Below, one piece after another: positions 52,178 to 62,359 of a stretch of 64,000 nucleotides of DNA; the stretch's first letter is position 1; the number at the start of each line of letters is the position of its first letter. The stretch is from an uncultured SAR86 cluster bacterium (GTDB lineage: Bacteria; Pseudomonadota; Gammaproteobacteria; Magnimaribacterales; Magnimaribacteraceae). The DNA lies in NCBI GenBank assembly GCA_902517565.1, contig CABYCU010000004.1, positions 27,514 to 91,513 on the forward strand. Reading direction: 5' to 3'. Position numbers and translations under genes: made by a program. The notes below the pieces were generated by a model. The model worked only from the letters and a program-made list of their open reading frames with translations. It did not search any database and had not been told where the DNA came from.

Positions 52178-53552
52178 TAATGAACATCGTTGAAATTTTT
52201 CTCACCCTTCTTACCATAAGTATTGCTGCAACCAATAAACCTGCTGCCATGCCTGTCCACATTCCTACAGCCCCCATTTGCTCAGTAATGATATCTGTAA
52301 TGGCAAGGACTATACCTAAAGGTAAACCTACACCCCAATATGAAACCGCCATTATTTTCATAGGACCAAACGTATCTTTATAGCCCCGCATACTTCCAAT
52401 ACTTGCCATTGCAAGTCCATCGGCTACTTGGAAGAAAGCAGCAAAACCCAGAAGCACCACTGCAAGCGCAACAACTTCAGGGTTATCATTGAGAAGAGTT
52501 GCTAAAAGTTCAGCATTTAAGACAATCATTACACTCATGAAAAGCCCACAAATAGTTGCTAGCCTTAATGAAAAGTAAGAGCTGTACTTAGCTCCCTTCA
52601 TATTATTTGCTCCTACATTATTTCCAACTCTCACTGCAGCAGCATTACCTATAGATAAAGGAACCATGAAAAATAAACCTCCAAGGGTTAGGGCAATTCC
52701 ATTTGCTGCTATAACTTCACTACCAAATCTACCCAAAATAATTCCCGCACCGCTGAACATACTCAGTTCAATAAAGTTGCCAAGTCCGACAGGAATGCCT
52801 CCTATAAGAATTTCTTTAAGTTTTTGTATATTAGGTAAGTCGAATCTGGAGAAAAATTCTGTACCAAATGCTGATTCGTACTTTAAGTATATGATGAGCA
52901 AGACAAATGTAGTCCATGTACCTATAACTGCAGAGAGGCCGGCACCTTTAGCACCCATTTCGGGGAAACCAAAATTACCATATATGAAAGTGTAATTACC
53001 AATTATGGCTATTAACAGCATCAGAACATTTAATAAAGTTATAGGAAGTGGCCTTGTTACACCTTCGCACAATGAACGTAAAGGTTGGCTTAACATGATT
53101 GCAGGCAAGGCGAAGATAAAATAACTTAGATATTCTTCAGAATATCTAATGATAGATGGATCAACCTTGGCAATAGTTAAAATTACGGATGCTTGCGACA
53201 AGATAAACATTCCAAATAAAACAATAGGTAAGGATAGCCATACAGCCTGTCTAACGAGTGGTCCAATATCTTTAAGGCTTTTTGCACCATAAAGCTGAGC
53301 AACCATAGGAGTTACGAAAAATAGAACGCCGCCAATACCAACCATTACTGGAAACCATAAATTTCCTGCCAACATAATGCCAGCTTGCACATCAGTAGAA
53401 TAATTCCCACTTTGCACAACTGAATTAATTTGAATTAGTTGCAAAGCTAATTGGGTGAGGAACATTGGTATAGCTAGCTTGAAAAAGCTAGAAGCTTCAC
53501 TTGCTGCTCTTCTAGAAAAAAGCGTATTTTTTGAGTCCAAGGGTTGTTCCAT
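52167..53552 (-). CDS. MATE family efflux transporter
   Basis: About 12 TM segments, [38 protein letters not shown]; start set at MEQPLDSK (53552). Confidence 0.92.
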
Positions 53553-54314
53553 AGAAGGCGCGTATCTTATCATGTACGTTGGAGGCAAGATATTAGAAAA
53601 GATCACAGACCATATTGGCTGAAAAAGCTATTTGCTAAATATAATAATTTTTATGTAGATAATTATTTAGCACCTCAATTTGAATATTTTGGTAAGGGTC
53701 ATAACGTGATGGGTGCCAAATATTTTGACATCTATGGGAGTAATATTTCTATAGGGGACTATCCAACTATGGTTGCCTCGCCAGATAATTACATACATCT
53801 AACTACATGGAATTTAGAAGATCATGAAGGAGAAATAAATATTGGTAAGTATTGTTTACTTACTCCTGGAGTGAGAATTGCATCTGCTTCATCAATCACT
53901 ATTGGAGACGGTTGTATGTTTGCAAATAGTGCTTATATATCAGACGCAGATTGGCATGGCATTTATGATAGAGCTATTCCTGTAGGCAAGACAAGTCCAA
54001 TAACTCTAGAAGAAAATGTTTGGATAGGTGACAGAGCAGTAGTAGGAAAAGGAGTTACCATAGGCAAAAATAGTATAGTGGCTGCTGGATCAGTAGTTGT
54101 TAAAGATGTCCCAGCTGATGTTGTTGTAGGAGGAAATCCTGCAAGAGTTATTAAAGAACTTGACCCTTCTGTGGATGGAGTAACAAGGATGAAGCTTTTT
54201 GAAGATCCTAAAGGTCTTGCAAATCTATACGACCAAATTGATCTTTATACCTTAAAAGAAAATACTGTTATCAATTACCTAAAGAGTATTTTTAAAAGAA
54301 ACAAAACACACTAA
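53544..54314 (+). CDS. Hexapeptide-repeat (left-handed beta-helix) acyltransferase
   Basis: [41 protein letters not shown]...[45 protein letters not shown]; start (TTG 53544) uncertain. Confidence 0.88.
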
Positions 54315-54472
54315 TTACGGAAAAATTACTCTAGACATTTTGCACTTGCATCTATATTGTTTATTCAAGTATTAAGTATTTTGAGAGAGTTGGGGAGCAT
54401 TCTTAAAATGTAACTTAAATTTTTAACTGATTCTTGATACTAGTTATTGAGAATCTTATTTGGAGAGTATTA

Positions 54473-55228
54473 ATGACCAACTCAATCAAGATATTTCTAG
54501 TATCTATTCTTTCAATTTCATTTTCTTTATCAGCCTATTCGGATGATACGCCGCCAGCTTTCATTCCTTTAGAAGGTTACGCTTGTAATTTTTCAAAAGG
54601 GAAGGATATGGATGATCTTTATAAAGTTGTGGATAAATGGAATGACTATATAGATGAAGGTGGCACGCAATATAACTCATGGGTGTTTACACCATTTTAT
54701 TTCAGTGAAGAGGAAGCTGCTGATGTTTATTGGATAGGAGTCTCACCAACATGGGAAGAGATGCTCAAAACGGATGAACATATGGCAGAACCCGAAGGAC
54801 AAAAACTTCAAGCTGAATTTAATAGAGTCTCTCCTTGTTTCGATCATACAAATTGGGGCTATGAAGATGTAAGAAACGGTTCTGATTCTGACGATGATGG
54901 GGTGGTTACTTTGATGTGGTGTGATCTAACGGAAGGCGCAACTAGAGATCAGGTACTAGCAGCCGATAAAAAATATAATGAATATATGGACTCAACAGAT
55001 TCATCTGCTGGAGCTGGTAGATGGTGGCCGGGTTCAGGCATACCTACAAGATTTACTGCAGACTTTCTTTGGGGCGTAGGCGTAGATAGCCTTGCTGAAT
55101 GGGGAAGAGGAGCAGATAGGGCAGTAAATGGCGGGGGTAATCAAGCCATGCAATCTATATACGGCGATTTAATGACATGCAGTAATCGAGCTGTATATAC
55201 AGTTAAAGCGGCTAGAACCTCTAACTAG
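54473..55228 (+). CDS. Secreted tandem-domain Cys protein, paralogue 1 of cluster
   Basis: Signal peptide; YACNFSKGKDMDDLYKVVDKWNDYID...; SAGAGRWWPGSGIP; LMTCSNRAVYTVKAART. Start set at MTNSIKIFLVS. Confidence 0.85.
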   Translation: MTNSIKIFLVSILSISFSLSAYSDDTPPAFIPLEGYACNFSKGKDMDDLYKVVDKWNDYIDEGGTQYNSWVFTPFYFSEEEAADVYWIGVSPTWEEMLKTDEHMAEPEGQKLQAEFNRVSPCFDHTNWGYEDVRNGSDSDDDGVVTLMWCDLTEGATRDQVLAADKKYNEYMDSTDSSAGAGRWWPGSGIPTRFTADFLWGVGVDSLAEWGRGADRAVNGGGNQAMQSIYGDLMTCSNRAVYTVKAARTSN

Positions 55229-55237
55229 GAAAAAGAC

Positions 55238-55939
55238 ATGAAAAAATTATTTAAAACTTTATTAATTGGTCTTTTTACTATGGCAATTAATGCAGAAGGG
55301 GGATTAAGCGTAATAACGATTAATACAGATGATGCTGCTGGGTATGTTTCTTGGCTGAAGGAAAATAGTCCTTTATTCGCAAATGCATGGGGCGATAACG
55401 TAGCTTCATCAGGGATTTGTTCTCCTATTTCCGGCGGAGAGCAGGAAGGTAATCATTATGTTTGGAATTTAGGACCTAGTCTTGCAGCAACAATGTCTGC
55501 TGTTCCTGGAAATGATTCAAGCACTGCTAATGCCATTCGTAAGATATCAAAAAAACGAACAGTTGAACGCAGAGATATTTACGAAGTCTTGAAACAAACT
55601 TCTCAAGTTAGTACGGCAGGACAAACTTCAGCTCAATATAATTTGCTTTCTACACCTTCCAATGTAAATGATTATATTGAAGCAGTTACTGCTATGGAGG
55701 CAGCTGCAGCTAGTAATGGATTCTCAGATGTGGAAATAGCTGTTTTTTCAGCTTCCGGGGCAGGAGATAGAGCTGGAATGGTAATGGCAAGCGTTCAAGC
55801 TCCTTCAACTGAAAGGTTAGGTTTATTTCTAGGAGCTAGAGATTCAGATTGGATGTCAGAAGCCATGAAAGATTTTTCTAATTTAAGAACACCAGAGTAT
55901 GAATGGCTTCTAAATTGTGAAGTTATCTACAGTAATTAA
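55238..55939 (+). CDS. Secreted hypothetical protein, divergent member of cluster
   Basis: Signal peptide MKKLFKTLLIGLFTMAINAEGG; C-terminal EWLLNCEVIYSN resembles paralogue C-termini. Confidence 0.75.
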   Translation: MKKLFKTLLIGLFTMAINAEGGLSVITINTDDAAGYVSWLKENSPLFANAWGDNVASSGICSPISGGEQEGNHYVWNLGPSLAATMSAVPGNDSSTANAIRKISKKRTVERRDIYEVLKQTSQVSTAGQTSAQYNLLSTPSNVNDYIEAVTAMEAAAASNGFSDVEIAVFSASGAGDRAGMVMASVQAPSTERLGLFLGARDSDWMSEAMKDFSNLRTPEYEWLLNCEVIYSN

Positions 55940-55954
55940 AAAAAGGTAAAAAAT

Positions 55955-56707
55955 ATGAAAAAATTAAATATAGTATTAGCGCTTCTAATTTCTATTTCTG
56001 TATCGGGAGTTAATGCTAATGATGATCAACCTTCTTTTTTTCCAATTGAAGGTGTTCAATGCAAATTTAATGCAGGTAAGGGCTTCGAAGATCTAGAGAG
56101 AGTTGTTGCAAAATGGAATAAATATATGGATCAAAGTGTCGCTGAAGGAAATCCAGACTATACAGCTTATCTCTTAACTCCTTATATGGTGAATGAGTCT
56201 GAAATAGATTTAGATTTTGTCTGGTTAGGAATGTGGTCTAATTTCTCTGATCTAAGAGGTATCACTCAATATTTTTCTGAAGCTTCAGAAATTGAAAGAG
56301 ATTTCAATGACTTGAGTACTTGCAAGACTAGGCAATTGGCCCCAACTCTCCAAGTTAGAGACCTTAAAGTTTCTGCACATAATGCTGAAGGAAATATAGT
56401 TCAATTAAGGTCTTGTAGTAATGTTGGTACTGTACAAGAGACTTTAGCTGCATATCAGGAATTCAATCAAAGAATGGATAAGATAGGTTCTGATATGGGA
56501 ATCTGGCTTTTAGCTAAGGGTCCTGGCTCAGCTACTAATGCTGATTATGATTTTATGCAAATGAGTGTAAGCACGGCAGAAGTCTACGGCAATACTCTAG
56601 AAGCTGCATGGAATGGACAAGCTTTTCAAGGTATGCAAATCGCAGATAAAATTGATTGCGGACCTTCTAGAGTATATCTAGGAAGAGGCCTTAGGACTAA
56701 CGATTAA
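55955..56707 (+). CDS. Secreted tandem-domain Cys protein, paralogue 2
   Basis: Signal peptide; VNANDDQPSFFPIEGVQCKFNAGKGFEDLERVVAKWNKYMD; KIDCGPSRVYLGRGLRTN. Confidence 0.85.
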   Translation: MKKLNIVLALLISISVSGVNANDDQPSFFPIEGVQCKFNAGKGFEDLERVVAKWNKYMDQSVAEGNPDYTAYLLTPYMVNESEIDLDFVWLGMWSNFSDLRGITQYFSEASEIERDFNDLSTCKTRQLAPTLQVRDLKVSAHNAEGNIVQLRSCSNVGTVQETLAAYQEFNQRMDKIGSDMGIWLLAKGPGSATNADYDFMQMSVSTAEVYGNTLEAAWNGQAFQGMQIADKIDCGPSRVYLGRGLRTND

Positions 56708-56721
56708 GTAAGGAGGATATT

Positions 56722-57492
56722 ATGAAGAACCTATTAACGATTCTTTTTTGTTCAATACTAACTCTAGGTAATTTATCTGCCGATGATCATGTCATTTCTT
56801 ACGGGATGGAGGGTTATCAATGTAATTACAAGGATGATGTGAATTTTGATGATTTGGTTTCTTTTATGCAAGATGATTTAAATCCTTATGCAGACGAAAA
56901 CTGGCCTGTTCCTTATAGTGGATTCTATCTAACTCCATTTTTAAGATCAGGTGACGAAGTATCATTTGATGTAGGTTGGGTAGGTTTTACGAATAATCAT
57001 AAAGATATGGGCAGAGTACAAGATTCTTGGTTTTCTGATGAAGCCTCTGAAACATTTGCAAAATGGGAATCTTTAACTGACTGTTCTTCACAAGGCTACT
57101 ACATGGCTATTGAAGCTAGAACACCTACAATTCAGTTTGTTGAAGGGGAGAATACATTTTGGGCCATAAGAAGTTGTTCTCTTAATGAAGGAAAATCTGT
57201 TCAAGACCTTTTAGCCAGTGATAAGGAATGGAATGAATATATGAATAAGTTAGGTCATACAGGCGGAGTTTGGAGGTGGGTACCAGTTGCCGGTACTTCA
57301 AATGCATCTGAAAGTGACTTTCTCATGAATATCTCTTTTAATTCATGGGAGGAATACGGATCAATACAGGATGATTCTTTTTGGGGTGTTACCGAACAAC
57401 CTGAAAGTGTTATAAGTTGTGATAATCCAAGAGTTTACACAGCCTTTAACGCTAGAAATCGTCCATTTAATGAAGAAACAAATGAGGAATAA
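56722..57492 (+). CDS. Secreted tandem-domain Cys protein, paralogue 3
   Basis: Signal peptide; SADDHVISYGMEGYQCNY; RSCSLNEGKSVQDLLASDKEWNEYMNKLGHTGGVWRWVP; VISCDNPRVYTAFNAR. Confidence 0.87.
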   Translation: MKNLLTILFCSILTLGNLSADDHVISYGMEGYQCNYKDDVNFDDLVSFMQDDLNPYADENWPVPYSGFYLTPFLRSGDEVSFDVGWVGFTNNHKDMGRVQDSWFSDEASETFAKWESLTDCSSQGYYMAIEARTPTIQFVEGENTFWAIRSCSLNEGKSVQDLLASDKEWNEYMNKLGHTGGVWRWVPVAGTSNASESDFLMNISFNSWEEYGSIQDDSFWGVTEQPESVISCDNPRVYTAFNARNRPFNEETNEE

Positions 57493-57493
57493 A

Positions 57494-58249
57494 ATGAAAA
57501 TAAAAAAAATATTACTACCAATAATTTTATCTTTCGTAGCTTTTATCAACGCTGATGATCATATAGATATTAGCGGCATGACAGCTTTACAGTGTCAATT
57601 CGCTGAAGGTAAGGATATGGATGACGTTATGAAAGTTCTTGACGAATGGAATGAATATGGCGATGAGAACTTTTCTGAGCCTTTTAGTGCTTGGGTTATG
57701 ACACCAGTATTCATGTCCACTGCAGATTTTGATTTAGATTTCGTATTCTTAGGATTTGCTGATTCGCTTGCAAGCATAGGCAGGGCTGAAGATGAATTTA
57801 GACCGGGTGGATCTAAGATTGGAGCTAAATGGGAAAGAGTAACTAACTGCTCAGGACAGTCACTTAGTTTCAATGTTGAGGCCAGAGCGCCAAAAAACCC
57901 TTGGGTTGCAGGAGGCACAAACTATACCATGATTCAATCATGCACTTTTAAAGATGGTAAGACAGCTGATGACCTTCAGGCAAATGATAAGATCTGGAAT
58001 AAATATCTAGACGAATCTGGTTACGAAGGTGGTTATTGGAGGTGGTGGCCTGAAACAGGTACACCTACTGATACAGACTACGACTATCTATTGGCTGTAG
58101 CATTTCCATCTGTTGAGGCATATGGTGCATCTAGAGATACTAGATTACAGACCATGATGAATGGAACTAGGCCGGAAGAGATACATAATTGCAATACTCC
58201 TAGGTTATATGAATCAACAAATATAAGACTTGTGCAACAAGAGGGATAA
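57494..58249 (+). CDS. Secreted tandem-domain Cys protein, paralogue 4
   Basis: Signal peptide; NADDHIDISGMTALQCQFAEGKDMDDVMKVLDEWNEYGD; QSCTFKDGKTADDLQANDKIWNKYLDESGYEGGYWRWWP; IHNCNTPRLYESTNIR. Start set at 57494. Confidence 0.87.
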   Translation: MKIKKILLPIILSFVAFINADDHIDISGMTALQCQFAEGKDMDDVMKVLDEWNEYGDENFSEPFSAWVMTPVFMSTADFDLDFVFLGFADSLASIGRAEDEFRPGGSKIGAKWERVTNCSGQSLSFNVEARAPKNPWVAGGTNYTMIQSCTFKDGKTADDLQANDKIWNKYLDESGYEGGYWRWWPETGTPTDTDYDYLLAVAFPSVEAYGASRDTRLQTMMNGTRPEEIHNCNTPRLYESTNIRLVQQEG

Positions 58250-58252
58250 AAA

Positions 58253-59002
58253 ATGACGAAAAAATATGTACTATTAATTTTATTCAGTTCCATAAGCACC
58301 TTTTGCTTTTCTGATGATCACTTAACTTATAGAACTGCCACGGGTGAAGTCCTGCAATGCAATCTAAACGATGGGAAGGATGCAGACGATGTGATGAAGA
58401 TGGTTAAGAATGATTGGTATGACTTAGATTATCCTGTTCAATACGAAGGATGGGTCTTAACACCAACTTTATTCGCATCTACCGACGGAGGCTATGATCT
58501 ATTTTGGGCTGGATTTACCTTAAATAACTCAGATATGGGAGCATCCCTTGATTGGTTTAATAATAATGCTTCTAAAGTGTTTGCTAAGTGGCAAAATTTA
58601 GTTAGTTGTGCTTCATGGAGTCAATGGGATATCTTTGAAGCTAGGAGACCGACTGTAGAGCTTGTAGAAGGTGATAATAATTTTTGGGCATTTCATAGTT
58701 GTGATTTTAAAGAAGGAAAAGGTGTATCCGATCTGCGAGATAACGACAAACTATGGAATAATTTCTTGGATAATCTTGGACATAAAGGCGGCGTTTGGAG
58801 ATGGTGGGCTGGAGGAGGTTCTGATACTCAAAACTCAACAGACTATTACGTGAATATCTCGTTCCCAACTATGAAGGAATATGGTGATTATAGAGACGCT
58901 AGAATGCAATCTATGATGGACGGCTCAATGCCTGAACAGATAGCCAACTGCCAGACACCTAGAGTCTATTCGGCAAATAATATAAAAACTATGAGTAATT
59001 AA
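58253..59002 (+). CDS. Secreted tandem-domain Cys protein, paralogue 5
   Basis: Signal peptide; SDDHLTYRTATGEVLQCNLNDGKDADDVMKMV; HSCDFKEGKGVSDLRDNDKLWNNFLDNLGHKGGVWRWWA; IANCQTPRVYSANNIK. Confidence 0.87.
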   Translation: MTKKYVLLILFSSISTFCFSDDHLTYRTATGEVLQCNLNDGKDADDVMKMVKNDWYDLDYPVQYEGWVLTPTLFASTDGGYDLFWAGFTLNNSDMGASLDWFNNNASKVFAKWQNLVSCASWSQWDIFEARRPTVELVEGDNNFWAFHSCDFKEGKGVSDLRDNDKLWNNFLDNLGHKGGVWRWWAGGGSDTQNSTDYYVNISFPTMKEYGDYRDARMQSMMDGSMPEQIANCQTPRVYSANNIKTMSN

Positions 59003-59018
59003 TTTACAAGTAAAATTA

Positions 59019-59046
59019 AACGGCCACATAAGTGGCCGTTTTTTTT
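59019..59046 (+). terminator. Rho-independent terminator closing the paralogue cluster
   Basis: AACGGCCAC-ATAA-GTGGCCGTT followed by a T-run. Confidence 0.92.
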
Positions 59047-59069: not shown

Positions 59070-60065
59070 GTGAATTATTTTTCAAAACCAGTCTCTATAT
59101 CGATCTTTACATTACTTGTTTCATTCTATCTTCCTTCTTCGCAAGATAACCCTGAACTCTACGAGTATTTAGAAAGCAGAAACACCACCAGTTTTATCCT
59201 CGCAAAAGAAGGACAGGTCCTATACGAGTATGAATTTAATCCTAATAAAACTATCTTCTTGCGCATGATGCAAGATGGTCTAATTGAAGGAAGAAGTCAT
59301 GAAGATGTTGCTTCTATCCAAAAAAGTTTTATATCAATTTTAATTGGTTTAGCTCAGCAAAAGGGTTATTTAAAAATTTCTGATTCTGTCAGCACGTACT
59401 TAGGTAGCTGGACTAAATTAAAAAAAGAGGAAGAAGAAAAAATAACCATAAGACATCTCTTAACTATGACCTCAGGATTAGATGACGATTTAGACTCTAA
59501 TATAGAACCAGGCACTGAATGGAAGTATGAAAGTCGATCCTACGGACAGCTTCTATATGTATTAGAATCTTCAACAAAGAAGAGCATCCAAGATTTATCA
59601 TCAGAATGGTTATTTGTGCCACTCAATATGGAGGAAACATTTTGGAAAAAAAGAGTAAAAGGCCTTCTGGGATTTTCTAAAAATTCCAGTGATTATGGGC
59701 TGGTCACTTCAGCTAGAGACTTGCTAAAATTTGGAGATTTCATTTTGAATGGCGGTGAAGTTGGAACTACTCACATTATTACAGACATAGATTTCTTTGA
59801 TGATTCCTTCACTCAATCTCAACAATACAATCCTGCCTATGGCTATCTGTGGTGGTTAAATAATTCTGAATATTTCATTAAATCTAACACTCAAGGAGAG
59901 GGAAATTTATATCCTTATGCTCCTCGTGAAACTGTATTAGCTCAGGGCGCGGGATCAAGGTTTCTTGCAATAGTCCCTTCAGAAGAACTGATAGTAATTC
60001 GGTTGGGTGATAACCCTAAAGATTCAAACTTTATCAATAACTTATGGAAATATATTCAAAATTAA
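59070..60065 (+). CDS. Beta-lactamase family serine hydrolase (class C-like), exported
   Basis: HEDVASIQKSFISILIGLAQQKGYL (SxxK), RHLLTMTSGLDDD, YGYLWWLNN; N-terminal signal; GTG start. Confidence 0.88.
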   Translation: MNYFSKPVSISIFTLLVSFYLPSSQDNPELYEYLESRNTTSFILAKEGQVLYEYEFNPNKTIFLRMMQDGLIEGRSHEDVASIQKSFISILIGLAQQKGYLKISDSVSTYLGSWTKLKKEEEEKITIRHLLTMTSGLDDDLDSNIEPGTEWKYESRSYGQLLYVLESSTKKSIQDLSSEWLFVPLNMEETFWKKRVKGLLGFSKNSSDYGLVTSARDLLKFGDFILNGGEVGTTHIITDIDFFDDSFTQSQQYNPAYGYLWWLNNSEYFIKSNTQGEGNLYPYAPRETVLAQGAGSRFLAIVPSEELIVIRLGDNPKDSNFINNLWKYIQN

Positions 60066-61396
60066 TATTCTTTTTATTTAGTCTCTTATTTTTCCCCTTA
60101 TTAAGTTCTGAAAATCAAATTTCTTGGAAAGAACATATCATAGATGATTCATCGTTAGGTCCTCCAGATCTCGCCGGAAGTGATGGTCTTGAGATAGCAG
60201 ATTTAGATAAAGATGGATTTATAGATATTGTTTCAGTACATGAGCTTGATACTGAGTATGGTGTTCCAAAAGGGTATGTCAGAATAGCATGGGGCTCTGA
60301 TGACCCTAATAAATGGGAGTTAACCACTTTAGCTGCAGGTTCTGATGCACCCTCTGCTGAAGATGTAGATATTGCTGACGCTGATGGAGATGGTTGGCTA
60401 GACATTGTTGTCGCATGTGAATTAGCCCACCTTATCTATTTTAAGAACCCCGGTACTAATCATCGCACGATAAGATGGAATAGATCCATACCAGAAATAA
60501 CCCTCAATCGAGGATCTTTCATTAGAGTTTTCTTCGCTGATTTCAATAATGATGGAAAAGTGGAGGTTGTAGCAGCGAATAAAGGTGGAGAGAACCCTGA
60601 CATTGAAAATGCGCCGCTTAATAACATTTCTATTTACAAGCTTCCTAAAGAACCACTGCAAGGCGATTGGGAGGAACTTGTTTTAACACAAGTGAGAATT
60701 CCAATTAATTCTCAACCCGTAGATTTAGATTCAGATGGAGATATGGATATTGTAGTTGGCTCAAGAGGCGAGGCTAGGATTTTATGGTTAGAAAACATAG
60801 GAAATTTTGATTTTGAAAAACATGATATCAACTTAGCCTCCAAGCTTGATAAAGGTTCATGGTTAACAGGCTTCAATATGGATTATGCTGATATGAATGA
60901 AGATGGCAGATTGGATATTATTAGTTCAGTCTGGCCTAGTTCCGTTTACATACTTTTTCAGCCTAAATTCCCTAATGAGATATGGAAGATAAAAAAGGTA
61001 GGCGATATCAATCCTGATAGATTGGTTAGTGTTTCAATTGCTGACATAGATCAAGATGGGGATAATGACATTTTTTCGGGGTCATACAGTCTTGGGAGTA
61101 GAGATAAGGATGATACTGAGAGCAGTAATAGATCTTATGGTAGTGTTGTTTGGTTCAAGAATAATGGCGCTAAATGGGAAAAGAATAATATTCTTCGAAG
61201 GAAAAGAGGAATGTATGATAAGTGGATACCTATTGATCTAGACAAAGATGAGGATATTGATTTTATCGGTACCAGAGGTAACAGCGAACCCTATGATGGA
61301 GTTATCTGGCTTGAACAAATGGACTCAGATCATTCAGAAAGTGTATTTCTTCCTGCAAGAGACAAGGATAGCGCTACAGTTCCATTTGATGATTAA
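60044..61396 (+). CDS. FG-GAP/VCBS repeat protein, exported
   Basis: Seven DxDxDG-type motifs (DLDKDGFIDIV, DADGDGWLDIV, DFNNDGKVEVV, DLDSDGDMDIV, DMNEDGRLDII, DIDQDGDNDIF, DLDKDEDIDFI) and a signal peptide. Confidence 0.9.
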   Translation: MEIYSKLIFFLFSLLFFPLLSSENQISWKEHIIDDSSLGPPDLAGSDGLEIADLDKDGFIDIVSVHELDTEYGVPKGYVRIAWGSDDPNKWELTTLAAGSDAPSAEDVDIADADGDGWLDIVVACELAHLIYFKNPGTNHRTIRWNRSIPEITLNRGSFIRVFFADFNNDGKVEVVAANKGGENPDIENAPLNNISIYKLPKEPLQGDWEELVLTQVRIPINSQPVDLDSDGDMDIVVGSRGEARILWLENIGNFDFEKHDINLASKLDKGSWLTGFNMDYADMNEDGRLDIISSVWPSSVYILFQPKFPNEIWKIKKVGDINPDRLVSVSIADIDQDGDNDIFSGSYSLGSRDKDDTESSNRSYGSVVWFKNNGAKWEKNNILRRKRGMYDKWIPIDLDKDEDIDFIGTRGNSEPYDGVIWLEQMDSDHSESVFLPARDKDSATVPFDD

Positions 61397-61432: not shown

Positions 61433-62359
61433 ATGGATTCTAGTAAGACCAAACCTTTAGACCTTCTAGATAAGTCTCAAATTTCTGAACTACGTCAGAA
61501 AAAAGATTTTAGAAATGTCTTAGCCCTGAGTTTTGATTGGGGGATGATGGCTTTTGGTTTCTATATTTTTTATGCATACCCAAGTGTGATCACTTTTTTA
61601 GTTGCTGTAATTATAATTGGTTCAAGACAATTTGCTTTGGCGGTACTGGCTCATGATGGAGCGCATAATCTTTTATTCTCAAATTTAAAGGTTAATGATT
61701 TTGTAGCCCAATGGTTCTGTGCTTATCCAATTTTTCAGGATAATAGGGTTTATAGGCCTTATCATCTAAAACATCACCGATACACTGAAACAGATGAAGA
61801 TCCTGATTTATCCTTGAGTGCACCATTTCCCATTACAAAAAAAAGTTTTTTGAGGAAAGTTTTCCGTGACCTAACAGGTTTAACAGGTTTAAAGAGATAT
61901 TCTTCTTCAATATTATCTATCCTTCATACTGATTCTTCAGGTCCACTAGATAAGCTATTCAAAGTATGGAATAAGATTCATGGTTTTCTGATATCTAATA
62001 TCATTATTTTCTTGCTACTCTCACTATTCTTTCACTGGTACTTTTATTTTTTATTGTGGTGGATACCTGCTTTCACCTACTATAGTCTTATTATTAGAAT
62101 TAGAAATATAGCTGAGCACTGCGTAACTCCAGGAGATAGCGGGTTTGATAATACAAGGACTACACAAGCAACTCTGTTGGTCAGGTTTTTGATGGCACCA
62201 CATAGAGTCAATTATCATCTTGAGCATCATCTTTTTATGATGTGTCCTTGGTACAACCTGCCAAAAGCCCATTCAATGATGATTGAAAATGGATATAAAG
62301 ATAAGATGTGTATGGAGACTTCCTATAGAAATGTTTTGTTAAAAGCAGTGAGTGCATGA
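61433..62359 (+). CDS. Fatty acid desaturase family protein
   Basis: His boxes HDGAH, HLKHHRYT, HLEHH; TM segments. Confidence 0.92.
   Translation: MDSSKTKPLDLLDKSQISELRQKKDFRNVLALSFDWGMMAFGFYIFYAYPSVITFLVAVIIIGSRQFALAVLAHDGAHNLLFSNLKVNDFVAQWFCAYPIFQDNRVYRPYHLKHHRYTETDEDPDLSLSAPFPITKKSFLRKVFRDLTGLTGLKRYSSSILSILHTDSSGPLDKLFKVWNKIHGFLISNIIIFLLLSLFFHWYFYFLLWWIPAFTYYSLIIRIRNIAEHCVTPGDSGFDNTRTTQATLLVRFLMAPHRVNYHLEHHLFMMCPWYNLPKAHSMMIENGYKDKMCMETSYRNVLLKAVSA

Follow-up and report, generated by a model that had tools for sequence, protein, structure and literature searches.

In the genome of an uncultured bacterium of the SAR86 cluster, six adjacent genes encode export-type proteins that, to judge from structure models, almost certainly adopt the tandem dimeric alpha/beta barrel (DABB) fold, in which ferredoxin-like b-a-b-b-a-b repeats are arranged as a pseudo-dimer. 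The genes lie in a window of 64,000 nucleotides (the whole stretch analysed; contig CABYCU010000004.1, positions 27,514 to 91,513) from assembly GCA_902517565.1, which comprises 1.21 Mb, is about 75% complete and has a GC content of 36%. An exported, cysteine-paired tandem family of this kind, carried in recombining arrays and nearly restricted to SAR86, is without an entry in the family libraries searched and without description in the literature searched.

Five of the six proteins are paralogues and are, together with their kin, termed FAM. P2 denotes the kin of the second protein, P0002, and T3 a third kind, an exported protein of ~245 aa that is present in sister arrays and absent from the window. 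The array and its putative signals are organized as follows.

54381..54409, + strand: best promoter-like site 5' of gene 1, TTGAGA-17-TAAAAT; consensus match only
54473..55228, + strand: gene 1, P0001; FAM, slot A; putative exported tandem-DABB protein of 251 aa (BLASTP; its orthologues form a separate clade across genera)
55238..55939, + strand: gene 2, P0002; P2; putative exported tandem-DABB protein of 233 aa and divergent member of the six (structure model, best match 2PGC, profile link to T3)
55955..56707, + strand: gene 3, P0003; FAM, slot B; 250 aa; confined to the window genome and relative G006 (BLASTP, tree, dS)
56722..57492, + strand: gene 4, P0004; FAM, slot C; 256 aa (BLASTP, tree)
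57494..58249, + strand: gene 5, P0005; FAM, slot D; 251 aa; the FAM copy used for structure prediction (BLASTP, structure model, tree)
58253..59002, + strand: gene 6, P0006; FAM, slot E; 249 aa (BLASTP, tree)
59018..59041, + strand: intrinsic terminator at the end of the array; 10-bp stem, loop of 4, then a T run

The six co-directional open reading frames (ORFs) fill positions 54473-59002 of the + strand with operon-like spacing (gaps of 9, 15, 14, 1 and 3 bp, in order), and plausible Shine-Dalgarno sequences precede most starts. Promoter-like sites upstream of gene 1 showed no excess over shuffled sequence in the region. Hydropathy calculation revealed that each N-terminus consists of a short polar stretch, a strongly hydrophobic stretch and a cleavage-like site. 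The best 11-residue Kyte-Doolittle mean is 2.2-3.05 near residue 6 in the six proteins, compared with at most 1.74 elsewhere. By these features each of the six resembles a protein with a Sec signal peptide.

Proteins of genes 1 and 3-6 match each other over essentially their full length, with 24-41% identity and BLASTP E-values from 1e-15 to 6e-66. Similarity was also detected within each protein. N-terminal and C-terminal halves of the five match with BLAST E-values down to 8e-7, and profiles of the two halves align with an HHalign probability of 99.4% over 108 columns (reversed control, 0.8%). At the sequence level, each of the five FAM proteins is thus an internal duplication. One-repeat exported homologues of 125-134 aa exist in other SAR86 genomes (L034 5265, L060 6996, L126 5678, L041 4338) and likely represent the unduplicated form or a remnant. 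In L034 and L060, the one-repeat homologue stands directly upstream of a two-repeat copy. An earlier note on this DNA had described a tight same-strand run of six genes closed by a terminator, a signal peptide on each product, paralogy of at least five of them and a second SC.F..GK motif. The gaps of 1-15 bp and the terminator at 59018-59041, the hydropathy of all six N-termini and the all-against-all BLASTP comparison, with E-values far beyond chance, agree with the first three of these claims, and the repeated motif proved to belong to the genuine internal duplication.

In BLAST, P0002 matched none of the other five array proteins significantly. Profile comparisons of P2, T3 and FAM were negative with small alignments; deep full-length alignments gave positive values. 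Since the latter are inflated by signal peptides, values for mature regions only, together with shuffled controls, were used. On this basis P2 and T3 are linked with 95.4% probability over 184 columns and FAM and T3 with 71% over 165 columns; reversed and column-shuffled controls did not exceed 1.2%, and it is these controls that carry the argument, one-against-one HHalign E-values being uncalibrated. Because FAM and P2 are not significantly linked to each other on mature sequence, membership of P0002 rests on the chain via T3 and on its predicted structure. By this evidence P0002 is a remote member of the superfamily. The possibility that it is an unrelated passenger, suggested by BLAST, was rejected after structure and profile work.

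The AlphaFold2 model of P0005, built from a 45-row alignment (predicted local distance difference test score, pLDDT, 89; predicted template modelling score, pTM, 0.82), displays the order of strands and helices E-H-E-E-HH-E followed by E-H-E-E-H-E. That of P0002, built on only 8 sequences (pLDDT 76.8), contains two b-a-b-b-a-b repeats with the same element order. When compared with PDB structures by Foldseek, both models retrieved 2PGC first, with E 6.6e-8 and a template modelling (TM) score by target of 0.76 for P0005 and E 4.9e-9 and 0.72-0.74 for P0002. Chlorite dismutase/HemQ, DyP and ABM-type monooxygenases, all of them DABB proteins, come next. At E<=0.001 there were 125 and 135 matches, and the top ones among those listed are DABB proteins. 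The predicted fold of the array proteins is therefore already known and not a new one.

No Pfam, NCBIfam or PHROG family scored above its curated cut-off with the array proteins, so that the earlier suggestion of no characterised family holds, though the fold is a known one. Matches below threshold in these libraries (reprolysin, PanZ, AsnC) were dismissed as chance. Among 45 FAM members scanned, none exceeded the ABM or NIPSNAP cut-off of Pfam. PDB sequence searches with 5-row and 45-row FAM profiles returned nothing significant. T3 is better connected: its 31-row profile matches the sequence of 2PGC with E 3.3e-4, and members of the T3 group match the Pfam families NIPSNAP (best 2.8e-11, from 4 of the 31 rows, which could be outlying), DUF6854 (2.3e-4) and ABM (0.005). 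A literature search found no description of the family, and the paper on a SAR86 isolate (PMC11582366) does not mention it under the terms tried.

We compared 94 FAM proteins at the cysteines found at positions 34, 119, 150 and 233 of P0005. All four are present in 77 proteins and only C150 and C233 in 16; the remaining row is truncated and is without the first cysteine. Since proteins possess either all four or the second two, the 34/119 pair is lost only as a pair. C150 and C233 are never lost in this set. C34 (repeat 1) and C150 (repeat 2) are located on strand b1, and C119 and C233 on strand b4. In the DABB-type ferredoxin-like fold b1 and b4 are neighbouring strands, and each FAM repeat therefore probably has its own b1-b4 disulfide, C34-C119 and C150-C233.

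The alignment also reveals a paired position at the start of strand b3. It is occupied by aspartate in both repeats of FAM (D82, 86%; D197, 94%), by histidine in both repeats of T3 (H74, 95%; H182, 90%) and by histidine in the first repeat of P2 (H73, 70%). In the FAM-T3 profile alignment D197 falls on the T3 histidine, and D82 is off by one residue from H74. This pseudo-symmetric Asp/His pair can be regarded as a candidate functional site and as no more than that. No FAM column inside the fold has histidine in at least 30% of sequences; histidine is common solely at H23, in the N-terminal ADDH (55%).

Distribution and genome-wide copy numbers were determined by profile searches. Within the order, FAM is present in all 20 genera and in 105 of the 121 genomes sampled. 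Outside the order it was detected in a single one of 383 sampled gammaproteobacterial genomes; of the other four positives in this class sample, one is the window genome and three are other SAR86 genomes. T3 occurs in 60 of the 121 genomes (13 of 20 genera) and in no genome of the class sample that lies outside the order, and P2 in 56 of the 121 (14 of 20 genera). Besides its five array copies, the window genome contains two clear and one weak FAM copies elsewhere, and one P2. One distant FAM copy (G000:C14:8191-8919; L022 5192-5950) was flagged for a TAG in the aligned stretch. As the 252-aa ORF is open, the flagged codon is probably its own terminal stop, caught inside the alignment, and no mark of decay.

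In SAR86 families f1, f2 and f3, FAM and T3 genes are direct or close neighbours, and two high-GC (61%) non-SAR86 contigs, L076 and L077, carry an adjacent FAM-T3 pair. This neighbourhood suggests that FAM and T3 work together. That the array is carried by phages was considered and rejected, no relative being found in IMG/VR; plasmid and phage record collections were outside this search.

The superfamily expanded independently at other sites. In family f3, separate clusters (L115, L116, L117) consist of an enoyl-CoA hydratase-like gene surrounded by four T3-type genes for exported tandem-DABB proteins. Tandem P2-P2(-T3) groups are found in the same family (L120 4289-6404), and similar pairs occur in G032, G456, G035, G436 and G486. 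In family f2, a secreted-looking PDZ-domain protein is encoded between two FAM genes (L102 3297-4052, L103 6275-7030). Other homologues outside the array lie near a putative cyclase, PHB-type esterases and an alkylsulfatase-like hydrolase.

The array of family f1 is flanked by a MATE/acyltransferase pair on one side and by a desaturase-MsrB-MurJ block on the other. Borders and neighbours in the window, along with a recombination tract discussed below, are these.

53544..54314, + strand: hexapeptide acyltransferase-like gene, which bounds the variable site on its left; synteny conserved
55899..56785, unstranded: gene-sized recombination tract around P0003
59070..60065, + strand: PF00144 serine beta-lactamase-family gene; beside many, not all, arrays
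60044..61396, + strand: FG-GAP-repeat protein gene; beside most, not all, arrays
61433..62359, + strand: fatty acid desaturase gene; right border of the variable site

Array size at this site ranges from one to six genes, for example six in the window genome (G000) and in G006, where the array is split over two contigs, five in G003, G004, G016, G017, G487 and G492, four in G001 and G013, three in G462 and two in G441. In some genera the site is empty, as in G022 and G019 (L129, L130), with the acyltransferase adjoining the desaturase at gaps of 127 and 220 bp. Beta-lactamase-family and FG-GAP genes, which overlap by 22 bp, come and go jointly or singly in relatives: G004, G016 and G017 are without both, and G003 and G002 keep FG-GAP only.

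Replacement of single genes was observed as well. Flanks of G004 and G016 are 88-95% identical and slot 3 differs, being a FAM slot-C gene in G004 and a T3 gene in G016. Around P0003, a tract of ~890 bp is 95.4% identical between the window and G006, compared with 76% and 79% on either side (log-likelihood gain 69). Synonymous divergence (dS) of P0003 in this comparison is 0.20; that of neighbouring genes is at least 1.1. The tract ends in the 3' end of P0002 and in the signal-peptide region of P0004. It is a recent gene-sized exchange.

Copies A, C, D and E each form their own clade across genera in a tree (quick search, with support from the Shimodaira-Hasegawa-like approximate likelihood ratio test, SH-aLRT). 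Paralogues are therefore older than the genus, and a recent lineage-specific burst was rejected. The quick-changing part is which copies a genome holds, as seen in the empty site, slot swaps and one recent recombination. The ratio of non-synonymous to synonymous substitution rates (dN/dS) of orthologues is about 0.05-0.2 for all copies tested, rough values since several dS are near saturation, and indicates purifying selection; orthologue comparisons gave no sign of positive diversification. Lineage-specific diversification, proposed in the earlier note, thus stands in one part: local expansion is real, and neither a recent burst nor positive diversification agrees with the cross-genus clades and with these ratios, respectively. 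Either of the roles suggested in that note, periplasmic ligand binder or oligomeric component, may apply.

We tentatively favour a reading in which the array is a cassette of exported tandem-DABB proteins, those of FAM probably with disulfide-locked repeats, that would bind or convert small molecules in the periplasm with parallel specificities. DABB proteins usually use the pocket between repeats for small, often aromatic or hydrophobic, molecules. By analogy, the two repeats of each array protein would form a central pocket that may bind, and perhaps convert, small, probably hydrophobic (aromatic, steroid-like or lipid-like) molecules. They would act in the periplasm, after TonB-dependent uptake and before the inner membrane; SAR86 genomes possess many TonB-dependent transporters and genes for lipid, steroid and aromatic degradation (PMC11582366). 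Each paralogue would contribute a specificity of its own, and FAM and T3 types may act as partners. At the fixed SAR86 site, copies are gained, lost and replaced gene by gene, on this reading via homologous recombination.

Several points weigh against this reading. Both folds are predictions, that of P0002 from the 8 sequences mentioned. FAM has no significant sequence match to any DABB family or to 2PGC in profile searches, and the direct FAM-P2 comparison of mature regions reached 4%, not significant by itself. No set of catalytic residues can be recognised, and much of what is conserved (Cys, Gly, Pro, Trp) looks structural. The ligand class is taken solely from the superfamily and from general SAR86 metabolism. 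Because neighbours differ between families, genomic context fixes no pathway.

A structural or interaction role is somewhat unlikely. Here the paralogues would be parts of an exported hetero-oligomer, and their mix would serve to tune this complex, in the periplasm or at the outer surface, rather than to bind small ligands. DABB proteins often oligomerise, chlorite dismutase and HemQ forming rings, and the 2PGC entry has five chains. Retention of several non-identical copies in one unit, adjacency of FAM and T3 genes even outside SAR86 and copy swapping at a fixed site, which resembles variable surface loci, would all suit such an assembly. It accords poorly with arrays reduced to one to three genes in some genomes and with lone single copies elsewhere in genomes; moreover, neither export machinery nor an anchor is encoded beside the array, and DABB oligomers usually carry a pocket anyway. 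Unlikely, too, though like the structural role a rival to be taken seriously, is that the proteins are enzymes only, namely cofactor-free oxygenases, isomerases or similar in the style of ABM, anthrone oxidase or NIPSNAP, acting on periplasmic aromatic or lipid substrates, each copy with its own specificity. Tandem ABM-type monooxygenases (3F44, 3MCS, 5F9P, 9KDP) among the structural neighbours, the ABM and NIPSNAP matches of T3-group members and the T3 histidines H74 and H182 where FAM has D82 and D197 point in this direction. On the other side, no conserved catalytic set is common to FAM, P2 and T3, the paired positions differ between subfamilies, and D82 and H74 are out of register in the alignment.

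Binding of heme or porphyrin in the manner of chlorite dismutase, HemQ or DyP, for example in iron or heme scavenging, is very improbable. Many top structural neighbours are indeed these proteins, but TM is about 0.5 to them and 0.76 to 2PGC, and the FAM fold is without conserved histidine, so that their proximal ligand is missing and heme binding of this type is disfavoured. It is hardly credible that the genes are selfish or decaying duplicates without selected function. Turnover at the site, variation in copy number and the few single-repeat copies elsewhere might be read in this way; the notion is largely refuted by purifying selection, and intact frames, conserved cysteine pairs and presence in 105 of 121 genomes of streamlined bacteria contradict it as well. 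Of the readings compared, that of exported pocket proteins with parallel specificities would fit best.

SAR86 bacteria are among the most abundant in the surface ocean, with genomes of roughly 1.2-1.7 Mb and a diet centred on lipids, aromatics and steroids (PMC11582366). A streamlined genome here devotes about nine genes, six of them in the array, to one unnamed exported superfamily. FAM moreover is nearly universal in SAR86 and all but absent from other Gammaproteobacteria, and taken together these facts imply a function that defines the clade and that current databases miss. The array also displays gene-by-gene exchange between species at a fixed site. With a cultured isolate (HIMB1674; PMC11582366) and small, soluble-looking proteins to work with, this question lends itself to direct testing.

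Among known systems, periplasmic solute-binding proteins of the ABC and TRAP type are comparable in being exported and, by analogy, possibly in binding ligands. They differ from the array proteins in predicted fold, in that no Pfam solute-binding model is matched and in that no such transporter adjoins the array. NIPSNAP and DUF6854 are matched by members of the T3 group and not by FAM or P0002. Chlorite dismutase, HemQ and DyP have the same tandem DABB architecture (Foldseek E about 1e-5); they differ in TM-score, as given above, and in the conserved histidine that FAM is without. The tandem ABM-type monooxygenases named above likewise consist of two fused ferredoxin-like repeats and are of similar length (TM 0.5-0.6), whereas FAM has two disulfide-like cysteine pairs and an export-type N-terminus and no FAM member matches their Pfam models. 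2PGC, an uncharacterised structural-genomics entry (JCVI_PEP_1096685590403) which we take to be filed in a 'marine metagenome DABB' structural family, shares 12-13% identity in structural alignment and has no significant sequence match to FAM or P2 profiles. With its ~207 residues it is nevertheless the top PDB match of both models and, as a marine metagenome protein, is likewise of marine origin.

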